Below are positions 35,984 to 50,427 of a DNA stretch of 52,396 bases, piece after piece. Position 1 is the stretch's first letter; each line of letters opens with the position of its first letter. This DNA comes from Nitrospirota bacterium (GTDB taxonomy: Bacteria > Nitrospirota > Thermodesulfovibrionia > Thermodesulfovibrionales > Magnetobacteriaceae): NCBI GenBank assembly GCA_015233895.1, contig JADFXG010000020.1:1-52396 (forward strand), read 5' to 3'. Made by a program: the position numbers and the translations under genes. Under the pieces are notes generated by a model that did not search any database, was not told where the DNA came from, and saw nothing but the letters and a program-made list of their open reading frames with translations.

Positions 35984-36313
35984 TTAGTCATCATCATGTT
36001 GGATAAAGTACGCTTCCAGATCACGTGCTCCATGCACAATATGAACGATATACAAATGGCTGCGTGGACCGTCTTTGTCGGCATAACGCATAAAGATTAC
36101 ATATTTGCCAAAAGTTACAGTGCGGTAATTCCGTCCAAATTCTGGCCGTGCACGGCCCATCATGTTTGGTAGTTTTGCAATTTGTTCACAATAATCAGTA
36201 AGTTTATCTATGAATTTTTCTGCTGCTGCTCTATTTGCGCTCTCACTCTCAATATAGCCTGCTATCACAGCGATATCGCGTTGGGCTGAAGACAGATATA
36301 CAAGTTTTGGCAC
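35984..36313 (-). CDS. ParE/RelE-superfamily toxin
   Basis: The 109-residue protein has the ParE pattern: SSAQRDIAVIAGYIES near the N terminus, LPNMMGRARPEFG, YRTVTFGKYVIFMRY and a final LYIVHIVHGARDLE. ParE toxins usually poison DNA gyrase; the RelE branch cleaves mRNA. The antitoxin gene ends three bases upstream on the same strand, the expected order. Target not readable from sequence. Confidence 0.88.
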   Translation of the reverse strand: MPKLVYLSSAQRDIAVIAGYIESESANRAAAEKFIDKLTDYCEQIAKLPNMMGRARPEFGRNYRTVTFGKYVIFMRYADKDGPRSHLYIVHIVHGARDLEAYFIQHDDD

Positions 36314-36316
36314 AGC

Positions 36317-36550
36317 TTAGCGGCTATGCGTCCTAACGATGCTGTCAAGATGTTTACGTGCAAAGCGGCGTACTTCCTCTGTGGTAAAACTGCCGCCTTC
36401 TGCTTCGGCGGCTTCCAGTTCGGCGCGAAGCTGCGATATTTTAGCATGATTAATTGCATAGCGGACGGCGTCTTCTGCCGTGGGGAAGTGTCCGGCGTCA
36501 AGCTCTGCCTCCACCCACTGGGCAGCATCCGGCGTTAATTCAACTTTCAC
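36317..36550 (-). CDS. ParD-like antitoxin
   Basis: The 77-residue protein from GTG 36550 has a short ribbon-helix-helix-like N-terminal part (KVELTPDAAQWVEAELDAG, then AEDAVRYAINHA) and a charged helix that should wrap the toxin. GTG 36550 is chosen because GGAGGT lies seven bases upstream; a longer frame to 36580 crosses that site. The pair probably represses its own promoter. Confidence 0.85.
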   Translation of the reverse strand: MKVELTPDAAQWVEAELDAGHFPTAEDAVRYAINHAKISQLRAELEAAEAEGGSFTTEEVRRFARKHLDSIVRTHSR

Positions 36551-36738
36551 ACTGACACCTCCTTTCACACAACTATACACTATCGTATCACAAAGCCGGG
36601 TGCAAAATCTCAGCCCCTTTTAATCATGCCTGTCAAACATTATCTGAACTATGATTTTTAGGATTTAATGACGGACTATGATTTTTAAGGGAATCTCCAT
36701 CGGAGTGGTTTGCTTCAATGCGTTATTGCTTTTATAAG

Positions 36739-36797
36739 AAGGGCGAATAATTATTCGCCCCTACTCCTCTATCCCTGCGCCCTTTAATGCCTGTGGC
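36739..36797. repeat. Dispersed repeat copy A: 20-bp palindrome plus CHAT-gene 3'-end remnant
   Basis: A perfect palindrome (GGGCGAATAATTATTCGCCC, 36741-36760) is followed by sequence matching the end of the CHAT-STAND gene. The 59-bp stretch differs from copy B (37470-37528) at five positions. On the minus strand the copy still encodes VKPQALKGAGIEE and a stop, against the SQALKSAGIEG end of the CHAT protein. The rest of the gap 36581-36865 shows nothing I can name. Confidence 0.7.
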
Positions 36798-36865
36798 TTT
36801 ACTGAGTATTTACATTTGAGTTAAGATAACATAATGGTTTGTGATGGCGACATTTGGGGCAGTTA

Positions 36866-37114
36866 ATGATAATATTTCACCCTCATGCGAAGGAGCGGTT
36901 AACTGAACGGGGAGCTACTGAACAGGAGGCAATTTCAACGGTTCAAAATGGCGAGATGTTTACAGCAAAATTCGGACGTACCGGTTTCAGGAGAAATTTT
37001 AATTTCGCAGGCCAGTGGCGTGGTAGGCATTATGAAATTAAGCAAGTGGAGGTTTATGCAGTCAAAGAGGATGGTAACTGGATAATTATCACAGTAATAA
37101 CCCGATATTTTTAA
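36866..37114 (+). CDS. DUF4258 protein (putative toxin)
   Basis: The 82-residue protein fits DUF4258: HPHAKERLTERGATEQEA, a GE turn, and a C-terminal IIITVITRYF strand. This small fold resembles RelE-like nucleases, and members are often paired with DUF2283, as here. ATG 36866 has GGGG upstream; a TTG at 36854 would add four residues. Toxin function is inferred from the pairing and its location among other toxin-antitoxin genes. Confidence 0.8.
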   Translation: MIIFHPHAKERLTERGATEQEAISTVQNGEMFTAKFGRTGFRRNFNFAGQWRGRHYEIKQVEVYAVKEDGNWIIITVITRYF

Positions 37115-37136
37115 AGACGAGAGAAGGAACGGTTAT

Positions 37137-37379
37137 ATGAAAATAAGCTACGATCCGAGATACAACATTGCATATTTACGTCTGCATGAAGGTGTGGAGC
37201 CTGCCGGTGTGGAGACAATAAAAATGAGTGATGAGATTAACATTGATATGGCACCTGACGGTACAATCTATGGCATAGAACTATTGAATGCCAATGAACA
37301 GCTTAATAAAGCGGACAAAGGGAAACTTCTTGTAGTTAATGAGGCAACAGGAGAGGAGTCGGAGTTCGCTATCTTTTAG
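37137..37379 (+). CDS. DUF2283 protein (putative antitoxin)
   Basis: The 80-residue product has the DUF2283 signature YDPRYNIAYLRL, a SDEINIDMAPDGTIYGIELLNA core and an acidic end. The gene is 22 bp after the DUF4258 gene with AAGGA before the ATG. The gene pairing suggests toxin-antitoxin, with this as the acidic partner. No DNA-binding domain is visible. Confidence 0.8.
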   Translation: MKISYDPRYNIAYLRLHEGVEPAGVETIKMSDEINIDMAPDGTIYGIELLNANEQLNKADKGKLLVVNEATGEESEFAIF

Positions 37380-37469: not shown

Positions 37470-37528
37470 AAGGGCGAATAATTATTCGCCCCTACCCCTC
37501 TATCCCTGCGCTCTTCAACGCCTGTGAC
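37470..37528. repeat. Dispersed repeat copy B at the 3' end of the CHAT gene
   Basis: The same 20-bp palindrome (37472-37491) abuts the CHAT stop codon at 37492, and the matching remainder is the coding 3' end of that gene. See copy A. The palindrome could also serve as part of the CHAT terminator. Confidence 0.7.
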
Positions 37529-40122
37529 ACTTGATAACTCTTTAACGTCTTATTGATTTCTGTCACCTCTTTAAGGCACTGTATCGCCTCCACAGGTTTG
37601 CCGGTTGCATCGTATAACATCGCAAGGTTAAAAAGAGTAGTCGCCTCCCCCTTTTTATTGCCAATCTTCTTACTGATTTCTAAACTCTCAAGTAGATACT
37701 TAAGCGCACTGTCATTATCGCCACGGTCCTTATATATCTGGCTGATATTATTTAAAGTAGCTCCTTCCGTCTGTTTTCTGCCCAGAACTTTCGCTATTTT
37801 TTCAACCTCTAAATAAATCTCCAATGCCCCGTTATAATCACCATATAAATCTAATATTAAACCCATATTATTTAAAACATCTAAATCTGAGTCCAACCCG
37901 AGCAATTCGTAAACGGCTTTGCAATAATGAAACGCTGTTGCATATAATGAGCTGTTATAATAATATCCGACAAGCCTATTACCGATTTCATTAATCTTAT
38001 CTTTTACTCCGGCTTTGTGATAATGATAGAATGCCTCCTCGCCATCTGTTAAACCATCAGATTTTTCAAGTAAATCATCGTAATAATCACCGGCAATTTT
38101 ATTAGAAAACGTAACAGTGACACCATTTTGCCCGTCATGCTCCTTCAGCAAATCTTTGATTATCGGCGTTATGAAATAGTATTTATCTTCATCTGTATCG
38201 CTTGTCTTAACCGTTGAAATCTCAATGAGAGTCAGGTTGCCTAAATATTCCAAATCAGTTATCGCAGCACTCTCAGGCTGCTCTTTAAGCGCCTTAAATT
38301 GAACCGGAATCCTGAAATTAGAAAGCAGATACAAAATCCTTTTTTGCTCAACACTAACCAGCTTTAGTAATTCATTGAAAACAAGGTTTAGCGCCATCTC
38401 AGACCTTACATCAGAAACAGCGGCAGATAAAATTGCTTTCATACCGGCTATCGTGTTCAGTGATTCTATAATTTTATCTTTTTGCTTTTTATAAATTTCG
38501 TTAAAGAATTCAAGAGCGCGGAAATTCCCACCAAGGCTCTCATACAGAAATTTGACCAGATCCACAAACTCGGCTTCCTGCTTGTCAAAAATCGTCTCTA
38601 AATAGAATTTCTTGTTTAGCTCATGATGAATTTCAAACAACTCCAGATATTGGCACTTTTTCCAGTAATCGTTAAACCCGATGTTGTTTAAATTGACCTC
38701 GATTATATTTGCAAGCCCAGGAATCACATACCTGCCGGTTAAAACCAGCTGTACGATCTTCTCGTTACAGAGATGTTTTATCACCTCGTAAATGTCATTA
38801 TATTCGCTATGAAAATTACCGGTTGAAACATCCTGAAAAGTCTCAAGATTGTCAAACACTAACACGGGGTCAAATTTTTCTACATAAGCATTTAATAAAA
38901 CATCAATCTTATCCAAAGCCTTTTCTGTAGATTTTGCACAAAGAATAGCGTTCATGAATTTTTCTGAGCTGGTTTTCATCATATTAAGTTCAATTAATTT
39001 CAAAACATCGTCAATAGAGCGCACCTTATCAGTAATAATTACTGGTATCGTTTTAGCTGGATTCTTTGTAATAGCGCGTTGAACCATATACTCGGCCATC
39101 GTGCTTTTACCGACTCCTCCCTGACCCTTCAGCATGATAGGTTTCTTATCAAAAAACGGCTCAAATACTTTTGCCTTCTCAGCCCTCCGCCCAACAAACA
39201 TAAAACCCGCTTTGTGAGCTAACGATATTTGTTTACCTTCTGTCACATACTGATACGTTGTTAATTTCAAAGGTTCACGTGCGCTTTTCCAGTCCACGAG
39301 GTTTTCAATTTTACGTGAGACGTAGAGATTTGGGATCATCCATTGTTGTGTTGCATAGCCGGTCATGAGGGCTTGTTGCTGTTCATAAATTTTCAGTGTT
39401 TTTAATGCGTTTGTAAATGCCTTAGTAACAGGCATTCTTTTTGCGAGTTCTTTATAAAGCTCTGCCGTAAAAAGTATTGCATGTTCGTCTGACACAGACA
39501 TTCCCATTGAAACAACCGCAGGAGTATTGACATTTAGGAGTTTGGAGGTTATGCCGCTTAGGATTTTCTCAGAGCCGCCCTGAGCAGTCTGACACGATGA
39601 TAGCACGACAAGCGGAATTTTGTATTCAGAATTAAAATTGACCGCTTTAGCGAACTTATCTTCATCTACTAATTCACCTTTTAACGTATAGTGGTTTTCT
39701 AAATACAAGTAACCTTTTTTATCCTTAAACACGCCATGTCCGGAAAAGTGCAAAATGTGGTATTGGTTAGTTTCTATTTTTGCTTTAAGAGCATCAAGTG
39801 AACCGTCATCGGTATAGTCAATTTGCACATGACCGGTCTTAAGAAGCGGCTCAAACGCTTTCAATATCTGGAACTCTTCGTCTTCATGAACAAGCCGTGA
39901 TTTGTAATTTAGATCAAGCGGCGATGAAATCATAATCAAGATTTTTAGCGGTGCTGCCACATGCGGAGTAAAATTGGCACAGTTTTTGTCACTTATTGTA
40001 ATCGGCGTTTTTAATAAATGCAGGGTTTCGATGTCACCAAGCCGTGTATCTGTATCAGATTCCTCGGCAAGCGGCCACGGGAGATTCATGATTTCGTTAT
40101 CGTCGTCAATTAGCCGCAGCAC
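37492..40122 (-). CDS. CHAT protease-STAND NTPase-TPR protein (5' end interrupted by TAG)
   Basis: From the upstream ATG at 40338 the frame encodes ~948 residues, but an in-frame TAG (40240-40242) breaks codon 33; the stretch given here starts at an internal GTG without a ribosome-binding site. Domains in full-frame numbering: small N-terminal domain (1-~115), CHAT caspase-like protease with His201 (HFSGHG) and Cys249 (SSCQTA), STAND/NB-ARC NTPase with Walker A near 405 (GQGGVGKST) and VLVFDNLE, and C-terminal TPRs (about 770-930). Such proteins are conflict-system sensors: TPR recognises a trigger, the NTPase oligomerises and the protease acts on a partner. It lies among three toxin-antitoxin pairs. 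With the stop it may be inactive, read through, or re-initiated. Confidence 0.85.
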   Translation of the reverse strand: MLRLIDDDNEIMNLPWPLAEESDTDTRLGDIETLHLLKTPITISDKNCANFTPHVAAPLKILIMISSPLDLNYKSRLVHEDEEFQILKAFEPLLKTGHVQIDYTDDGSLDALKAKIETNQYHILHFSGHGVFKDKKGYLYLENHYTLKGELVDEDKFAKAVNFNSEYKIPLVVLSSCQTAQGGSEKILSGITSKLLNVNTPAVVSMGMSVSDEHAILFTAELYKELAKRMPVTKAFTNALKTLKIYEQQQALMTGYATQQWMIPNLYVSRKIENLVDWKSAREPLKLTTYQYVTEGKQISLAHKAGFMFVGRRAEKAKVFEPFFDKKPIMLKGQGGVGKSTMAEYMVQRAITKNPAKTIPVIITDKVRSIDDVLKLIELNMMKTSSEKFMNAILCAKSTEKALDKIDVLLNAYVEKFDPVLVFDNLETFQDVSTGNFHSEYNDIYEVIKHLCNEKIVQLVLTGRYVIPGLANIIEVNLNNIGFNDYWKKCQYLELFEIHHELNKKFYLETIFDKQEAEFVDLVKFLYESLGGNFRALEFFNEIYKKQKDKIIESLNTIAGMKAILSAAVSDVRSEMALNLVFNELLKLVSVEQKRILYLLSNFRIPVQFKALKEQPESAAITDLEYLGNLTLIEISTVKTSDTDEDKYYFITPIIKDLLKEHDGQNGVTVTFSNKIAGDYYDDLLEKSDGLTDGEEAFYHYHKAGVKDKINEIGNRLVGYYYNSSLYATAFHYCKAVYELLGLDSDLDVLNNMGLILDLYGDYNGALEIYLEVEKIAKVLGRKQTEGATLNNISQIYKDRGDNDSALKYLLESLEISKKIGNKKGEATTLFNLAMLYDATGKPVEAIQCLKEVTEINKTLKSYQVSQALKSAGIEG

Positions 40123-40239
40123 GTAATGATTACCTGTTGTAACAGCATCTTTAATTATAGTTTTAACATCAGGGTTAGCGGCGATAACATTTGATAGTTC
40201 GTCTTTAAGAGGTTTAAGAATTTTATCGTCGGCGATTCC

Positions 40240-40338
40240 CTAATTTTCCATCGCCTCGGTAAATTGTAAACCGAGTTGTTTTAAGCGCGTTCGTTGTTCG
40301 GCAGAAATATTAAGCGTAACGTCTTTCCATTGCATCAT
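40240..40338 (-). pseudogene. 5' fragment of the CHAT-STAND gene ending at an in-frame TAG
   Basis: ATG 40338, with GAGG upstream, opens a frame beginning MMQWKDVTLNISAEQ that runs 32 codons to TAG (40240-40242). The frame then continues with no shift into the CHAT gene: GIADDKILKPLKDELS, NHYVLRLIDDD. A single nonsense change, a sequencing error or programmed readthrough would explain it. Confidence 0.75.
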
Positions 40339-40376
40339 AGCCCTCGTCCTCGTTCCGTACAGAATTTACTATCCAA

Positions 40377-40407: not shown

Positions 40408-40482
40408 GAGCACAGAGGAAACGTTGCGGAGCAATCTACAAGATTGCACGAACGCGGGGGAGTTTTACTTCTTAAAAAATGA

Positions 40483-40523: not shown

Positions 40524-40769
40524 ATGAATTACATGTTAACGGCATTTATAGAGAAAGAGGGTACGGGGTATGTGTCTTTGTGTCCGGAACTTGACGTTGT
40601 TAGTCAGGGGGAGAGCATTGAATCCGCCCGTGATAACCTGAAAGAAGCTCTGGAGTTGTTTTTTGAAACTGCCTCATCTCAGGAAATTCAAGACCGGCTG
40701 CACAGAGAAGTTTACATTACACACATTGAGGTTGATGTTGCCAAAGAGACTACGTGTTCATTCGGGTAA
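40524..40769 (+). CDS. hicB: HicB-like antitoxin
   Basis: The 81-residue protein has the degenerate RNase H-like HicB fold: YMLTAFIEKEGTGYVSLCPELDVVSQGESIESARDNLKEALELFFE. It would bind HicA and block its RNase activity. GGGGG precedes the ATG. The gene comes before hicA and overlaps it by 35 bp, so the antitoxin is made first. No C-terminal DNA-binding domain is seen, so autoregulation may need the complex. Confidence 0.9.
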   Translation: MNYMLTAFIEKEGTGYVSLCPELDVVSQGESIESARDNLKEALELFFETASSQEIQDRLHREVYITHIEVDVAKETTCSFG

Positions 40770-40959
40770 AGATGTTTGCGGGATTCTCTCAAAACATGGT
40801 TTCGTAAAGATAAGACAGAAAGGAAGCCATGTGGTAATGCAAAAGAGCATATACCAGAGCACAATCACAGTTGTTGTCCCTGACCATAACGAGTTACAAG
40901 TTGGTACTCTGCAGTCTGTTATTCGTCAGTCAGGAATACCCCGTAGTGAATTTGAATAA
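40735..40959 (+). CDS. hicA: HicA-like mRNA interferase toxin
   Basis: The 74-residue protein from ATG 40735 (GAGG four bases before) matches HicA: SGKDVCGILSKHGFVKIRQKGSHVVMQ with the catalytic His of GSH, then VVPDHNELQVGTLQSVIRQSGI. It folds like a double-stranded RNA-binding domain and cuts mRNA. A longer frame from 40663 adds 24 residues inside hicB and is not HicA-like. Confidence 0.9.
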   Translation: MLPKRLRVHSGKDVCGILSKHGFVKIRQKGSHVVMQKSIYQSTITVVVPDHNELQVGTLQSVIRQSGIPRSEFE

Positions 40960-41126: not shown

Positions 41127-42752
41127 ATGCCTTATAAGAATGCTTCAGAGTGCTGGAAAGAAATAATGTCAGATGTAAGGAAAAATGCAGGGCTTCTTTC
41201 TGAAATTCAAAAGTTTGCTAAAGAAAATACGGAACCAACAAATGTTGTTTTTGGCACGTCAGGGTGGCGCGGAGAGATTGGCTTTGACTATACGTACAAC
41301 AACTTTAAGATAGTTACCACGGCAATCATAGAGATGTTTAAAGAAGAGGCTCCCGAGGTGATGAAAGCGCTTGGAGTAAAAGACTTCAACGAGGTTAAAA
41401 CCAGAGGTGTTATAGTGGGGCATGACAATCGCTTTCTGGGCCCTGACTTTGCTAAAATTGCCATTGGACTTCTAAACAAAGAAGGTATAAAAACATATTA
41501 TTCCGGAGAGACTACAACTCCTGAGTTTTCCACTGCAATTGAGGAACTTGGCGCCGCATGTTCCATAAATCTGACCCCGTCCCATAATCCGGCACAGTGG
41601 GCAGGGTTTAAGTTTAACCCCTCTGACGGAGGCCCGGCCGGTAGCGAAATTACCAAAGTTATCGAAAAGTTTGCTAATTCTATGATGGCTCAGAAACGGA
41701 TAATCCCAGACCCTGACACCACGGCCACCTTTGAGACAATTGACCCCATTGCACTGTATGAAAAATTTATAAATAAAAGAGGAACTCTCAACACTCAGGA
41801 ATTGAAAAAATTTATTGAGGAAAATGACTGTCTTATTTGCATAGACCACGTTCACGGCTCAACACGGACACGCCCGCAGAGACTTTTAGGTGAGTCGCCT
41901 AAAATCAAGTATTTCAGAACCGGGGACGATTACCTGTTTGGAGGCATTGCCCCGGAGCCGTCCTCCGAAAACATGAAGAAGGTGACTGAGGCGCTGAGAA
42001 GTTCCAGTGCGAAGTTTAAACTTGGCGTTATCATGGACCCCGATGGCGACAGGATACGCTTTACAGATGGCACCACGGAGCTTCCCATGAACTATTTTGG
42101 AGCACTTGCTTTTCACTTCTTCTACAAATACAAGGGGTTTAAAGGGATTGTGACAAAGTCCGTAGCAACCAGCAATTTTGTAAACGCTATAGCTGAAAAA
42201 CTTTGTGCTTGTCTCAGAGAAACCATGGTGGGGTTTAAAAATTTCAGACCCTATCTGCTGCCCACGGCCTCAGAATGTGCAATCATAGCGTTTGAGGAAA
42301 GCGACGGAATCACCGGCTTCAACCACACACTTGAAAAAGACTCCATCTTCGGATTTCTTGTAGCGTTGGAGATGATGGCAAAGACCGGCAAAAACATTGG
42401 TGATTATTTTAAAGATGTACAAGAAGAGTGTGGATACTTTTATCCGGACAGAGCCGGCATAGTAGTGGATCGCTCACTGGTTGGTAAACCACTGGCTGAG
42501 AAGCTCTCTAAAATTCGGGAAACCATGCAACTCGGCACTAAGGTTACATTTGGAGACTCTATCAAGACCATTAAAGATGTAATCACAGTTGATGGCACAA
42601 AAATTGTCTTTGATGACGACTCATGGCTTTTGATAAGACCCTCCGGCACGGAGCCAAAGGTCAGATTTTATATCGAGACCCGCTCTGAGGCTGAAAAAGA
42701 CATCATGTTTAAAAAAGCCGAGGAAATCACCAAAAACGCTATAGCCTCTTAG
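41127..42752 (+). CDS. Phosphoglucomutase/phosphomannomutase family protein
   Basis: The 541-residue alpha-D-phosphohexomutase moves phosphate between C6 and C1 of hexoses. It has FGTSGWRGEIG near the N terminus, the phosphoserine loop TPSHNP (Ser152), the metal loop DPDGDR (304-309), the sugar-binding EESDG and the phosphate-binding RPSGTEPKVR. The substrate (glucose, mannose or both) cannot be decided. GGGGG precedes the ATG. Its stop is 3 bp from the stop of the convergent UDP-glucuronate decarboxylase gene. Confidence 0.94.
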   Translation: MPYKNASECWKEIMSDVRKNAGLLSEIQKFAKENTEPTNVVFGTSGWRGEIGFDYTYNNFKIVTTAIIEMFKEEAPEVMKALGVKDFNEVKTRGVIVGHDNRFLGPDFAKIAIGLLNKEGIKTYYSGETTTPEFSTAIEELGAACSINLTPSHNPAQWAGFKFNPSDGGPAGSEITKVIEKFANSMMAQKRIIPDPDTTATFETIDPIALYEKFINKRGTLNTQELKKFIEENDCLICIDHVHGSTRTRPQRLLGESPKIKYFRTGDDYLFGGIAPEPSSENMKKVTEALRSSSAKFKLGVIMDPDGDRIRFTDGTTELPMNYFGALAFHFFYKYKGFKGIVTKSVATSNFVNAIAEKLCACLRETMVGFKNFRPYLLPTASECAIIAFEESDGITGFNHTLEKDSIFGFLVALEMMAKTGKNIGDYFKDVQEECGYFYPDRAGIVVDRSLVGKPLAEKLSKIRETMQLGTKVTFGDSIKTIKDVITVDGTKIVFDDDSWLLIRPSGTEPKVRFYIETRSEAEKDIMFKKAEEITKNAIAS

Positions 42753-47633: not shown

Positions 47634-49093
47634 ACACAATATCGGTTCTTTTCTCAAGGTTGGGCCTTCAATATAAATTCATACTTATCACTACCTGTTC
47701 AATCATTGCGGCTATGGGTATTGTTGGATATCTTGCGGTTGAAAGAGAAAAGAATATTCTCTATGTTGAAGCCGAAAAACAAGGGAGACTTCTCGGTGAA
47801 ACCCTTGCCATTCCAATAATTAATGATCTCATATATGAAAAACTCGGTATTGTGGAAGAGGGAGGCCTTTTAGATAACTACATCATGGAGATATTCAGCA
47901 GGCAGGATATAGCCCTATTGTATATCGCAGTTCTCAATGAGGCAGGCAAGGTAATGTCCCACAACAATATCACCGAATACGGGAAAGTTTATACCGATCA
48001 GTTGACAAGGAGGGCACTTGCTTCAGACTCAACTATTGTACAACAGATAGACAACAACACCCTGGATTTTGGAGTTCCTCTGTCCATAGGTAAAAAGAAA
48101 TGGGGTGTTCTGAGATTTGGGTTATCTCTGGAAAAGGTTGAGCGTGAAATCCTTGTCACCATTAAAAGGATTGTGATTCTTACGATGGCTCTTCTCTTTG
48201 CGGGCTTTGTAATCATAATGCTTTTGAGCAAGCGGTTTATAAGCCCTATAATTCATCTGGCAAACACTATGGAAAAAGCGCGGGGTGATTATCTCGATAT
48301 CAGTGTTGACGTAAAAGGACACGATGAGCTTGCTATTTTAGGAAAGAGGTTTAACAGCATGATAGAAAGACTACGGCAGGCAAATGAAGACCTGAAAAAG
48401 ACTCATGAAAAACTTATCCGCTCAGAGAAGCTTGCCTCTATAGGAATACTTGCCGCTGGTGTTGCACATGAGATAAATAATCCTCTTGGCGGAATCTTTA
48501 ACTGTATAGAGATGCTCAGGCACAATGGCGGCAATGCTGAACTAAGGGAAAAGTATCTGGCTCTTGTCAACGAGGGATTGGATAGGATCGGAAATACTGT
48601 AAACAAGCTCTTATGGATGTCACAGAGGCCAGATCACTCTCCTGTCAGTGTGAACATAAGAGACACAATGGACAGCGTTTACTCTTTTCTTGAGTATAAA
48701 ATACAAAAACGAGGCATTGCTTTCATTAACGAGGTACCCGACGACCTGCAAGTTACCTTTGATATACACGATTTTCAGCAGTTGATTTTAAATCTCTTTA
48801 TCAATTCGATTCACGCAATGGTTAACGGTGGGACACTGGAGGTCTGTGGACACAGGGAGGGCTCATCGGTAAGTATCGAGGTGGCAGATACCGGCTGTGG
48901 AATTGCTGCGGAAAACATTGGCAGGATTTTTGATCCATTTTTTACTACAAAACCCACAGGAGAGGGCACAGGGCTTGGGCTCTGGTTGACTTACGAAATA
49001 ATCAGAAACTATAATGGTGAAATATCGGTCGAAAGTGAGTTTGGAAAAGGCAGCAGATTCATCATGCGTTTTCCGGTAACTGAATCCATATGA
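47630..49093 (+). CDS. Membrane HAMP-histidine kinase, NtrB-like
   Basis: ATG 47630 overlaps the PhnD stop by ATGA, preferred over a longer frame from 47597. The 487-residue kinase has TM1 (about 15-36), a ~145-residue periplasmic domain, TM2 (about 181-200), HAMP (201-253), HisKA with His280 (GVAHEINNPLGG) and HATPase_c with NLFINSIHAM, DTGCGI, PFFTTKPTGEGTGLGL. It should pass a signal from the binding protein to the NtrC-type regulator. The stop overlaps the regulator's ATG. Confidence 0.94.
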   Translation: MNTISVLFSRLGLQYKFILITTCSIIAAMGIVGYLAVEREKNILYVEAEKQGRLLGETLAIPIINDLIYEKLGIVEEGGLLDNYIMEIFSRQDIALLYIAVLNEAGKVMSHNNITEYGKVYTDQLTRRALASDSTIVQQIDNNTLDFGVPLSIGKKKWGVLRFGLSLEKVEREILVTIKRIVILTMALLFAGFVIIMLLSKRFISPIIHLANTMEKARGDYLDISVDVKGHDELAILGKRFNSMIERLRQANEDLKKTHEKLIRSEKLASIGILAAGVAHEINNPLGGIFNCIEMLRHNGGNAELREKYLALVNEGLDRIGNTVNKLLWMSQRPDHSPVSVNIRDTMDSVYSFLEYKIQKRGIAFINEVPDDLQVTFDIHDFQQLILNLFINSIHAMVNGGTLEVCGHREGSSVSIEVADTGCGIAAENIGRIFDPFFTTKPTGEGTGLGLWLTYEIIRNYNGEISVESEFGKGSRFIMRFPVTESI

Positions 49094-50427
49094 AAGAAAT
49101 GATACTGTTGATAGAAGATGAAAAGCTGATGCGTGTGACCCTTGAGGATGCCTTGAAAGAGAAAGGATACGAGGTGATGTCTTTCGATACAGGCACGGGG
49201 GCACTGAACGCACTCAAACACAACTCTTTCGATGTTGCCGTAACCGATGTCAGGCTTCCCGACATGGATGGTTTCGACATTGTCAGGGAAATAACCGGAC
49301 GCAATGTTACGCAGGTGATAGTCATGACGGCGTATGGCACTATAAAGGATGCTGTGGAGGCGATGAAACTCGGCGCATTCGATTATATAACCAAGCCCTT
49401 TGCTCTCGATGAATTCCTGTTGCTTATAGCAAGGGCGCTTGAGATGAAGAGGCTGAGAGAGGAAAATATAAGGCTTAAAAAGGACCTCAGGAGGTGTTAC
49501 TCGGCACCAAACATAATAGGTGAAAGTCCAGGTATGAAAAAGGTCTTCTCGCTCATCTCAAATGTCTCCTCTTTGGATACGACAGTTCTTATTCTCGGTG
49601 AGAGCGGAACCGGCAAAGAGCTTGTCGCCACTACAATTCACTACCAAAGTAAGCGCAATGAAAAACCTCTCATCAAGGTAAATTGCGCTGCGCTGCCTGA
49701 CGGCCTCATAGAAAGCGAACTGTTCGGCTATGAAAAAGGAGCCTTTACGGGAGCCTTAAAAAGAAAACCCGGCAGGTTTGAGCTTGCACACGGCGGTACA
49801 ATTTTCCTTGACGAGATTGGAGATATTTCTCTTTTAAACCAGGCGAAAATCCTCAGGGTCATACAGGAAAGACAATTTGAAAGAGTTGGTGGCACAGCCA
49901 CTTTGGATGTTGACGTTAGAATAATTGCCGCAACGAACAGGAATCTTCAAGAGGATGTTAAGGCTGGACGGTTCAGGGAAGACCTGTACTACCGGCTCAA
50001 TGTTATACCTGTTACCATTCCACCGCTGAGAGAGCGGAAAGAGGACATTCCTAATCTGCTTGAGTTTTTTATGGATAAATACAGAGGCAAGCTTTCCAGA
50101 TATGTTCGGCTCTCCAAAGTTGCCGTAGATATGCTTCTTACATACGATTATCCGGGCAACGTCAGAGAGCTTGAAAATATCATTGAACGGTGCGTAACTC
50201 TTTCAACCGGTAGTGTTATCGGTAGGGATGAACTACCGCCCTTCATTGAAAATGGAGCTTACGCCGCAAAAAACCGGTTTCTCTCCGACGTTGCCGCCGA
50301 AGCCGAAAAAGACCATATAATAAACGTTCTGAAAACCACACAGGGTAATAAGACCAAAGGAGCGGAACTTCTTGGCATAAGCAGAAAAACCTTGTGGGAA
50401 AAGATGCACGCTTACGGTATAGAATAG
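49090..50427 (+). CDS. NtrC-family sigma-54-dependent response regulator
   Basis: The 445-residue protein has a receiver (Asp53 in TDVRLPDMDG), an AAA+ domain with Walker A GESGTGKE (170-177), GAFTGA (217-222) for sigma-54 contact, Walker B FLDEIGD, and a Fis-type HTH at the C terminus (LKTTQGNKTKGAELLGISRKTLWEKM). It activates sigma-54 promoters when phosphorylated. Its start overlaps the kinase stop as ATGA. Target genes are unknown; no clear -24/-12 site was recognised nearby. Confidence 0.95.
   Translation: MKEMILLIEDEKLMRVTLEDALKEKGYEVMSFDTGTGALNALKHNSFDVAVTDVRLPDMDGFDIVREITGRNVTQVIVMTAYGTIKDAVEAMKLGAFDYITKPFALDEFLLLIARALEMKRLREENIRLKKDLRRCYSAPNIIGESPGMKKVFSLISNVSSLDTTVLILGESGTGKELVATTIHYQSKRNEKPLIKVNCAALPDGLIESELFGYEKGAFTGALKRKPGRFELAHGGTIFLDEIGDISLLNQAKILRVIQERQFERVGGTATLDVDVRIIAATNRNLQEDVKAGRFREDLYYRLNVIPVTIPPLRERKEDIPNLLEFFMDKYRGKLSRYVRLSKVAVDMLLTYDYPGNVRELENIIERCVTLSTGSVIGRDELPPFIENGAYAAKNRFLSDVAAEAEKDHIINVLKTTQGNKTKGAELLGISRKTLWEKMHAYGIE

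Follow-up and report, generated by a model that had tools for sequence, protein, structure and literature searches.

Does a TAG codon inside a long CHAT-STAND reading frame mark a lost gene, or is the protein behind it still made? The frame lies in a Nitrospirota genome (G000) of 3.7 Mb in 65 contigs, and the window is the whole stretch of 52,396 nucleotides that was analyzed. On the minus strand, ATG 40338-40336 opens the frame and an in-frame TAG (40242-40240) follows as codon 33. Beyond it are 915 more open codons, unshifted, ending at TAG 37494-37492. The coordinates and the open codons agree with an earlier note on this DNA, which had described a TAG at codon 33 of a CHAT-STAND frame and an unshifted continuation. 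Homologous copies begin at the second ATG, 40335 (MQW...), which makes the TAG codon 32 from the family start. The 31 residues upstream of the TAG and those downstream align without a frameshift to full-length relatives, so this is one interrupted gene rather than two chance open reading frames. The features of the locus are as follows.

40333 to 40355, minus strand: family start ATG (40335), with the ribosome-binding sequence GAACGAGGACGAGGGCT directly upstream, the same in the paralogs.
40240 to 40338, minus strand: 32-codon open stretch, the N-terminal gene piece, with a predicted first strand and first helix.
40240 to 40242, minus strand: in-frame TAG, codon 33 from ATG 40338, from the sequence and the alignment to relatives.
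37492 to 40239, minus strand: remaining frame of 915 codons plus stop, with CHAT, P-loop NTPase (GQGGVGKST, LVFDNLE) and TPR.
39394 to 40122, minus strand: CHAT domain match PF12770, with the His of HFSGHG and the Cys of LSSCQT present.
37492 to 40122, minus strand: candidate truncated product of 876 aa, with its start at GTG 40122.
40524 to 40959, plus strand: HicB-like/HicA toxin-antitoxin pair, divergent, between the interrupted gene and the phosphoglucomutase gene.
41127 to 42752, plus strand: phosphoglucomutase/phosphomannomutase (PGM) gene, the syntenic anchor.

The window contains 12 in-frame stop junctions preceded by 30 or more open codons and followed by 150 or more. Only at TAG 40242 is the stop followed by a recognizable coding frame with no ATG, GTG or TTG in the next 13 codons; the next such codon is 40 codons on. 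One other junction has a distant next start (minus 49558), and it is antisense to the gene at 49090-50427. No other recognizable long gene lies behind an in-frame stop in this way at the 12 junctions of the whole window. The earlier note had proposed a search for other TAG-interrupted genes, and within the window this gave no other clear case.

The interrupted gene encodes the parts of a CHAT-NTPase-TPR (STAND, NLR-like) protein, and its frame is broken by the TAG. The CHAT match to PF12770 has an E value of 3.6e-24 by Pfam and covers residues 40-282 after the TAG against profile positions 26-266. Both the His and the Cys of the CHAT protease are retained. The NTPase core contains both P-loop motifs and an AAA_22 match above the cut-off, and the C-terminal repeats match TPR_12 (E 1.6e-18). 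In domain order, His/Cys pair, Walker motifs and TPR it resembles the NLR-like conflict proteins that join CHAT to a P-loop STAND-type NTPase and TPR. Unlike these proteins generally, the gene here is interrupted near its start and its immune role is putative. Antiviral proteins built from an effector, a STAND and a repeat part have been described (PMC10907252). The domain architecture, read from sequence, suggests a defence role for this gene. No published report on the gene was found in the literature searched. PADLOC gave TPR matches and a weak SAVED_CHAT match to it, and nothing else.

A structure model was made for 330 residues, starting at the second ATG; its confidence is moderate (mean pLDDT 73). 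The only PDB matches of this model at E < 0.001 are to the SAVED-CHAT filament. The CHAT part is like that of the SAVED-CHAT protease (PDB 8tl0; E about 3e-7), whereas the gene here has NTPase and TPR parts instead of SAVED and the whole-model superposition is poor (TMq 0.41). Pfam finds no SAVED domain, and the PADLOC SAVED_CHAT match spans the CHAT part only. The CHAT region also aligns to HetF (NCBIfam NF045509), at 47 bits against a cut-off of 1200 bits, and the protein is not HetF. The model places the stop in a predicted loop after the first helix (helices at residues 12-32 and 37-53). In the alignment, relatives carry quite different residues in the stop column.

Some full-length protein might be made by readthrough or amber suppression. 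The frame past the TAG is open and constrained, and many residues are tolerated at the TAG position, but the genome appears to lack the means. None of its 44 tRNA genes has the anticodon CTA, although the tRNA model used (RF00005) could miss an aberrant tRNA. The best PylS match has 20.8 bits, far under the 178-bit cut-off, and RF1 is present. Amber suppression, pyrrolysine and a missing RF1 were rejected on these results. TAG recoding was also rejected; TAG is a routine terminator and ends 13 of the 35 window genes. Readthrough is therefore very improbable, and the suppressor or readthrough that the earlier note had listed, with a check for an amber suppressor tRNA, was not borne out. The same note's phase-variable inactivation fared no better. 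The lesion is a point nonsense codon, and reading the sequence at the site showed neither a homopolymer nor a simple repeat.

The earlier note had also called for a comparison with relatives, and in two species of the genus this showed open copies at the corresponding chromosomal position. The positional ortholog in G001 (one contig) is an open 1039-aa frame (L114), and its neighbors are the same HicBA pair and PGM gene. The second is in G003, a member of the same genus as G000 that corresponds to Nitrospirae MAG nDJH6bin1. On its contig C37 the ortholog (L116, 6586-9924) is open over 1112 aa and is flanked by PGM and O-antigen ligase genes, as in the window. The stop is thus particular to the G000 lineage. 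A third relative, G002, contains an open 1124-aa copy at another place.

In the G003 ortholog the catalytic Cys of CHAT is replaced by Ala (LSSANTAQG), so its protease may be inactive. G002 also contains the 5' parts of further copies on contigs C53 (L105, 3-730) and C6 (L109, 445-891). In both, inner segments (residues 373-473 and 361-386) then follow reversed, at contig ends, through either an inversion or an assembly or amplification chimera.

Two further near copies are present in G000, on contigs C27 and C51. All three near copies are broken, each elsewhere, at about codons 33, 268 and 684. The C51 copy has 87-89% identity to the interrupted gene and a 1-nt insertion near codon 268. The C27 copy has 73% protein identity and a 1-nt deletion near codon 684. 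A programmed frameshift was rejected for C27; the lesion is a plain 1-nt deletion with no obvious slippery run. The same lesion recurs in G003 on contig C118, which is 99.76% identical over 3698 nt (L008 4600-8297 against L108). The PGM genes of the two genomes are far less alike, at 95%, which makes conservation a poorer explanation than a transfer or a mis-binned contig. The same tandem repeat stands at the ends of contigs C51 and C33. C33 is therefore probably the 3' part of the C51 copy, and the idea that this copy is truncated at its C terminus was rejected. The repeat array (TCTTCAGTGACACCGTCTTTATCAAATACACAG and variants; L007 1-260 and L014 1-230) is coding, lies between the NTPase and TPR parts, and is where the assembly breaks. 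Another six CHAT genes, distant from these copies, score above the Pfam cut-off, and their frames are open over 756-1107 codons.

Sequencing error, which the earlier note had listed, or an error of consensus or assembly is the main rival to a recent nonsense mutation. In that case, the cell has a sense codon and an intact gene. The assembly is in 65 contigs, its repeats break contigs (as at C51 and C33), and three similar copies might be mixed. The clean, strongly purifying remaining frame would also fit an intact gene. However, the TAG codon differs from the codon of both paralogs at that position, which excludes a simple copy-over from them. The C27 frameshift recurs in an assembly assigned to another species, so a lesion in this family need not be an artifact. 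We consider an error unlikely, though deserving of some weight.

The near copies also exchange segments. The interrupted gene and C51 share an identical tract of 340 nt that includes 159 sites variable among copies, a result matched in 0 of 2000 shuffles; their other stretches are mostly 80-90% identical. Codons 2-32 are nearest to C27 (93.8%), and the 33 codons past the stop are nearest to C51 (87.9%, vs 57.6% for C27). This switch of nearest copy and the long tract indicate the exchange, and the tract is a sign of gene conversion. It lies at about 38700-39050 in the window (alignment codons 444-560). All other copies are about 60-75% alike there, and this NTPase stretch looks hypervariable between copies.

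Such exchange could be read as silent-cassette switching. The three differently broken copies would form a recombining archive, from which gene conversion rebuilds an intact immune-like gene in some cells. Each copy is whole where the others are broken, the 340-nt conversion tract is strong, and the nearest copy changes from C27 to C51 at the stop. However, random decay plus conversion would look the same, and neither a subpopulation nor a dedicated recombinase nor a repeat border came to light. We regard switching as the least probable of the explanations, with hardly any chance of being correct.

The substitutions bear on the timing of a loss. The dN/dS of the interrupted gene is 0.164 against the C51 copy and 0.177 against G001, and third-position changes dominate. 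Its branch carries 78 synonymous and 47 nonsynonymous polarized changes. About 24 stops (23.7) would be expected on the branch without constraint, and one is observed. The strong purifying signature with a single lesion indicates that the frame was kept until recently. With no second stop, the unconstrained phase would roughly be at most about 13% of the branch (3/23.7, 95% limit), an estimate that gene conversion blurs. No relaxed selection is visible after the lesion, as expected for a recent event and equally for a gene that is still made. The recent loss of a gene, which the earlier note had raised, thus gains support from the open positional orthologs, the purifying signature and the single lesion. 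Ordinary bacterial nonsense pseudogenes likewise have a single early stop, open orthologs and a clean remaining frame. The stop here is derived, with open orthologs, as in those genes. The sole notable difference is that the paralogs here are also broken and swapping segments.

A shortened protein might still be made from within the frame. The earlier note had seen no good start between the stop and the CHAT domain. This holds in part. Forty codons past the TAG is GTG 40122, exactly where the Pfam match to CHAT begins, with an AGG upstream (ACAACAGGTAATCATTACGTG). A candidate truncated protein from this start would have 876 aa and keep NTPase, TPR and the entire Pfam match to CHAT, and the stop would remove only a fast-evolving N-terminal part. 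Among relatives, codons 2-72 have a pN/pS of 0.50-0.59, against 0.26-0.30 elsewhere. The coincidence of the GTG with the first CHAT-match residue favors this start, as does the AGG, which is absent there in the paralogs. However, the Shine-Dalgarno match is short, and the model places GTG 40122 within a predicted strand (residues 71-76, numbered from the second ATG). None of the relatives starts at this position, and every open copy retains the N-terminal part, including the distant copy in G008. A functional truncation has, in our estimate, only a small chance of being correct. Automatic annotation would call an 876-aa GTG-start protein here, and its existence is doubtful.

The interruption probably arose by a recent nonsense mutation. 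It affects a CHAT-STAND family that is duplicated, recombines and has been lost repeatedly, and the full protein is probably not made. A recent point mutation would have hit one of three near CHAT-NTPase-TPR (STAND/NLR-like) copies in the genome. It would have fallen at a position, in a predicted loop, that varies freely between copies, and left a nonsense codon 32 codons past the start. Ribosomes that begin at the usual ATG would stop at the TAG and release a fragment of 31-32 residues. The family is a duplicated one whose copies swap segments through gene conversion and have been inactivated repeatedly; the other two copies in G000 are frameshifted. We infer that the cell itself carries the mutation and that no working product is left.

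The locus very probably shows the usual turnover of a gene family with several copies and no new decoding trick. On its own, an early stop in a single gene of such a family means little. It does illustrate neatly how, within one genus, CHAT-STAND genes are duplicated, mended by gene conversion and then lost again.

Small genes lie near the interrupted gene (35984-37379 and 40524-40959). They encode a ParE-like toxin with a ParD-like partner, DUF4258, DUF2283 and the HicB-like/HicA pair. The C51 copy is also adjoined by HicBA and a GNAT-type gene. Upstream of the interrupted gene, at about 40419-40455 in the window, is a short dispersed sequence (TGCAATCTTGTAGATTGCTCCGCAACG...) that is also present on contigs C51, C33 and C13.
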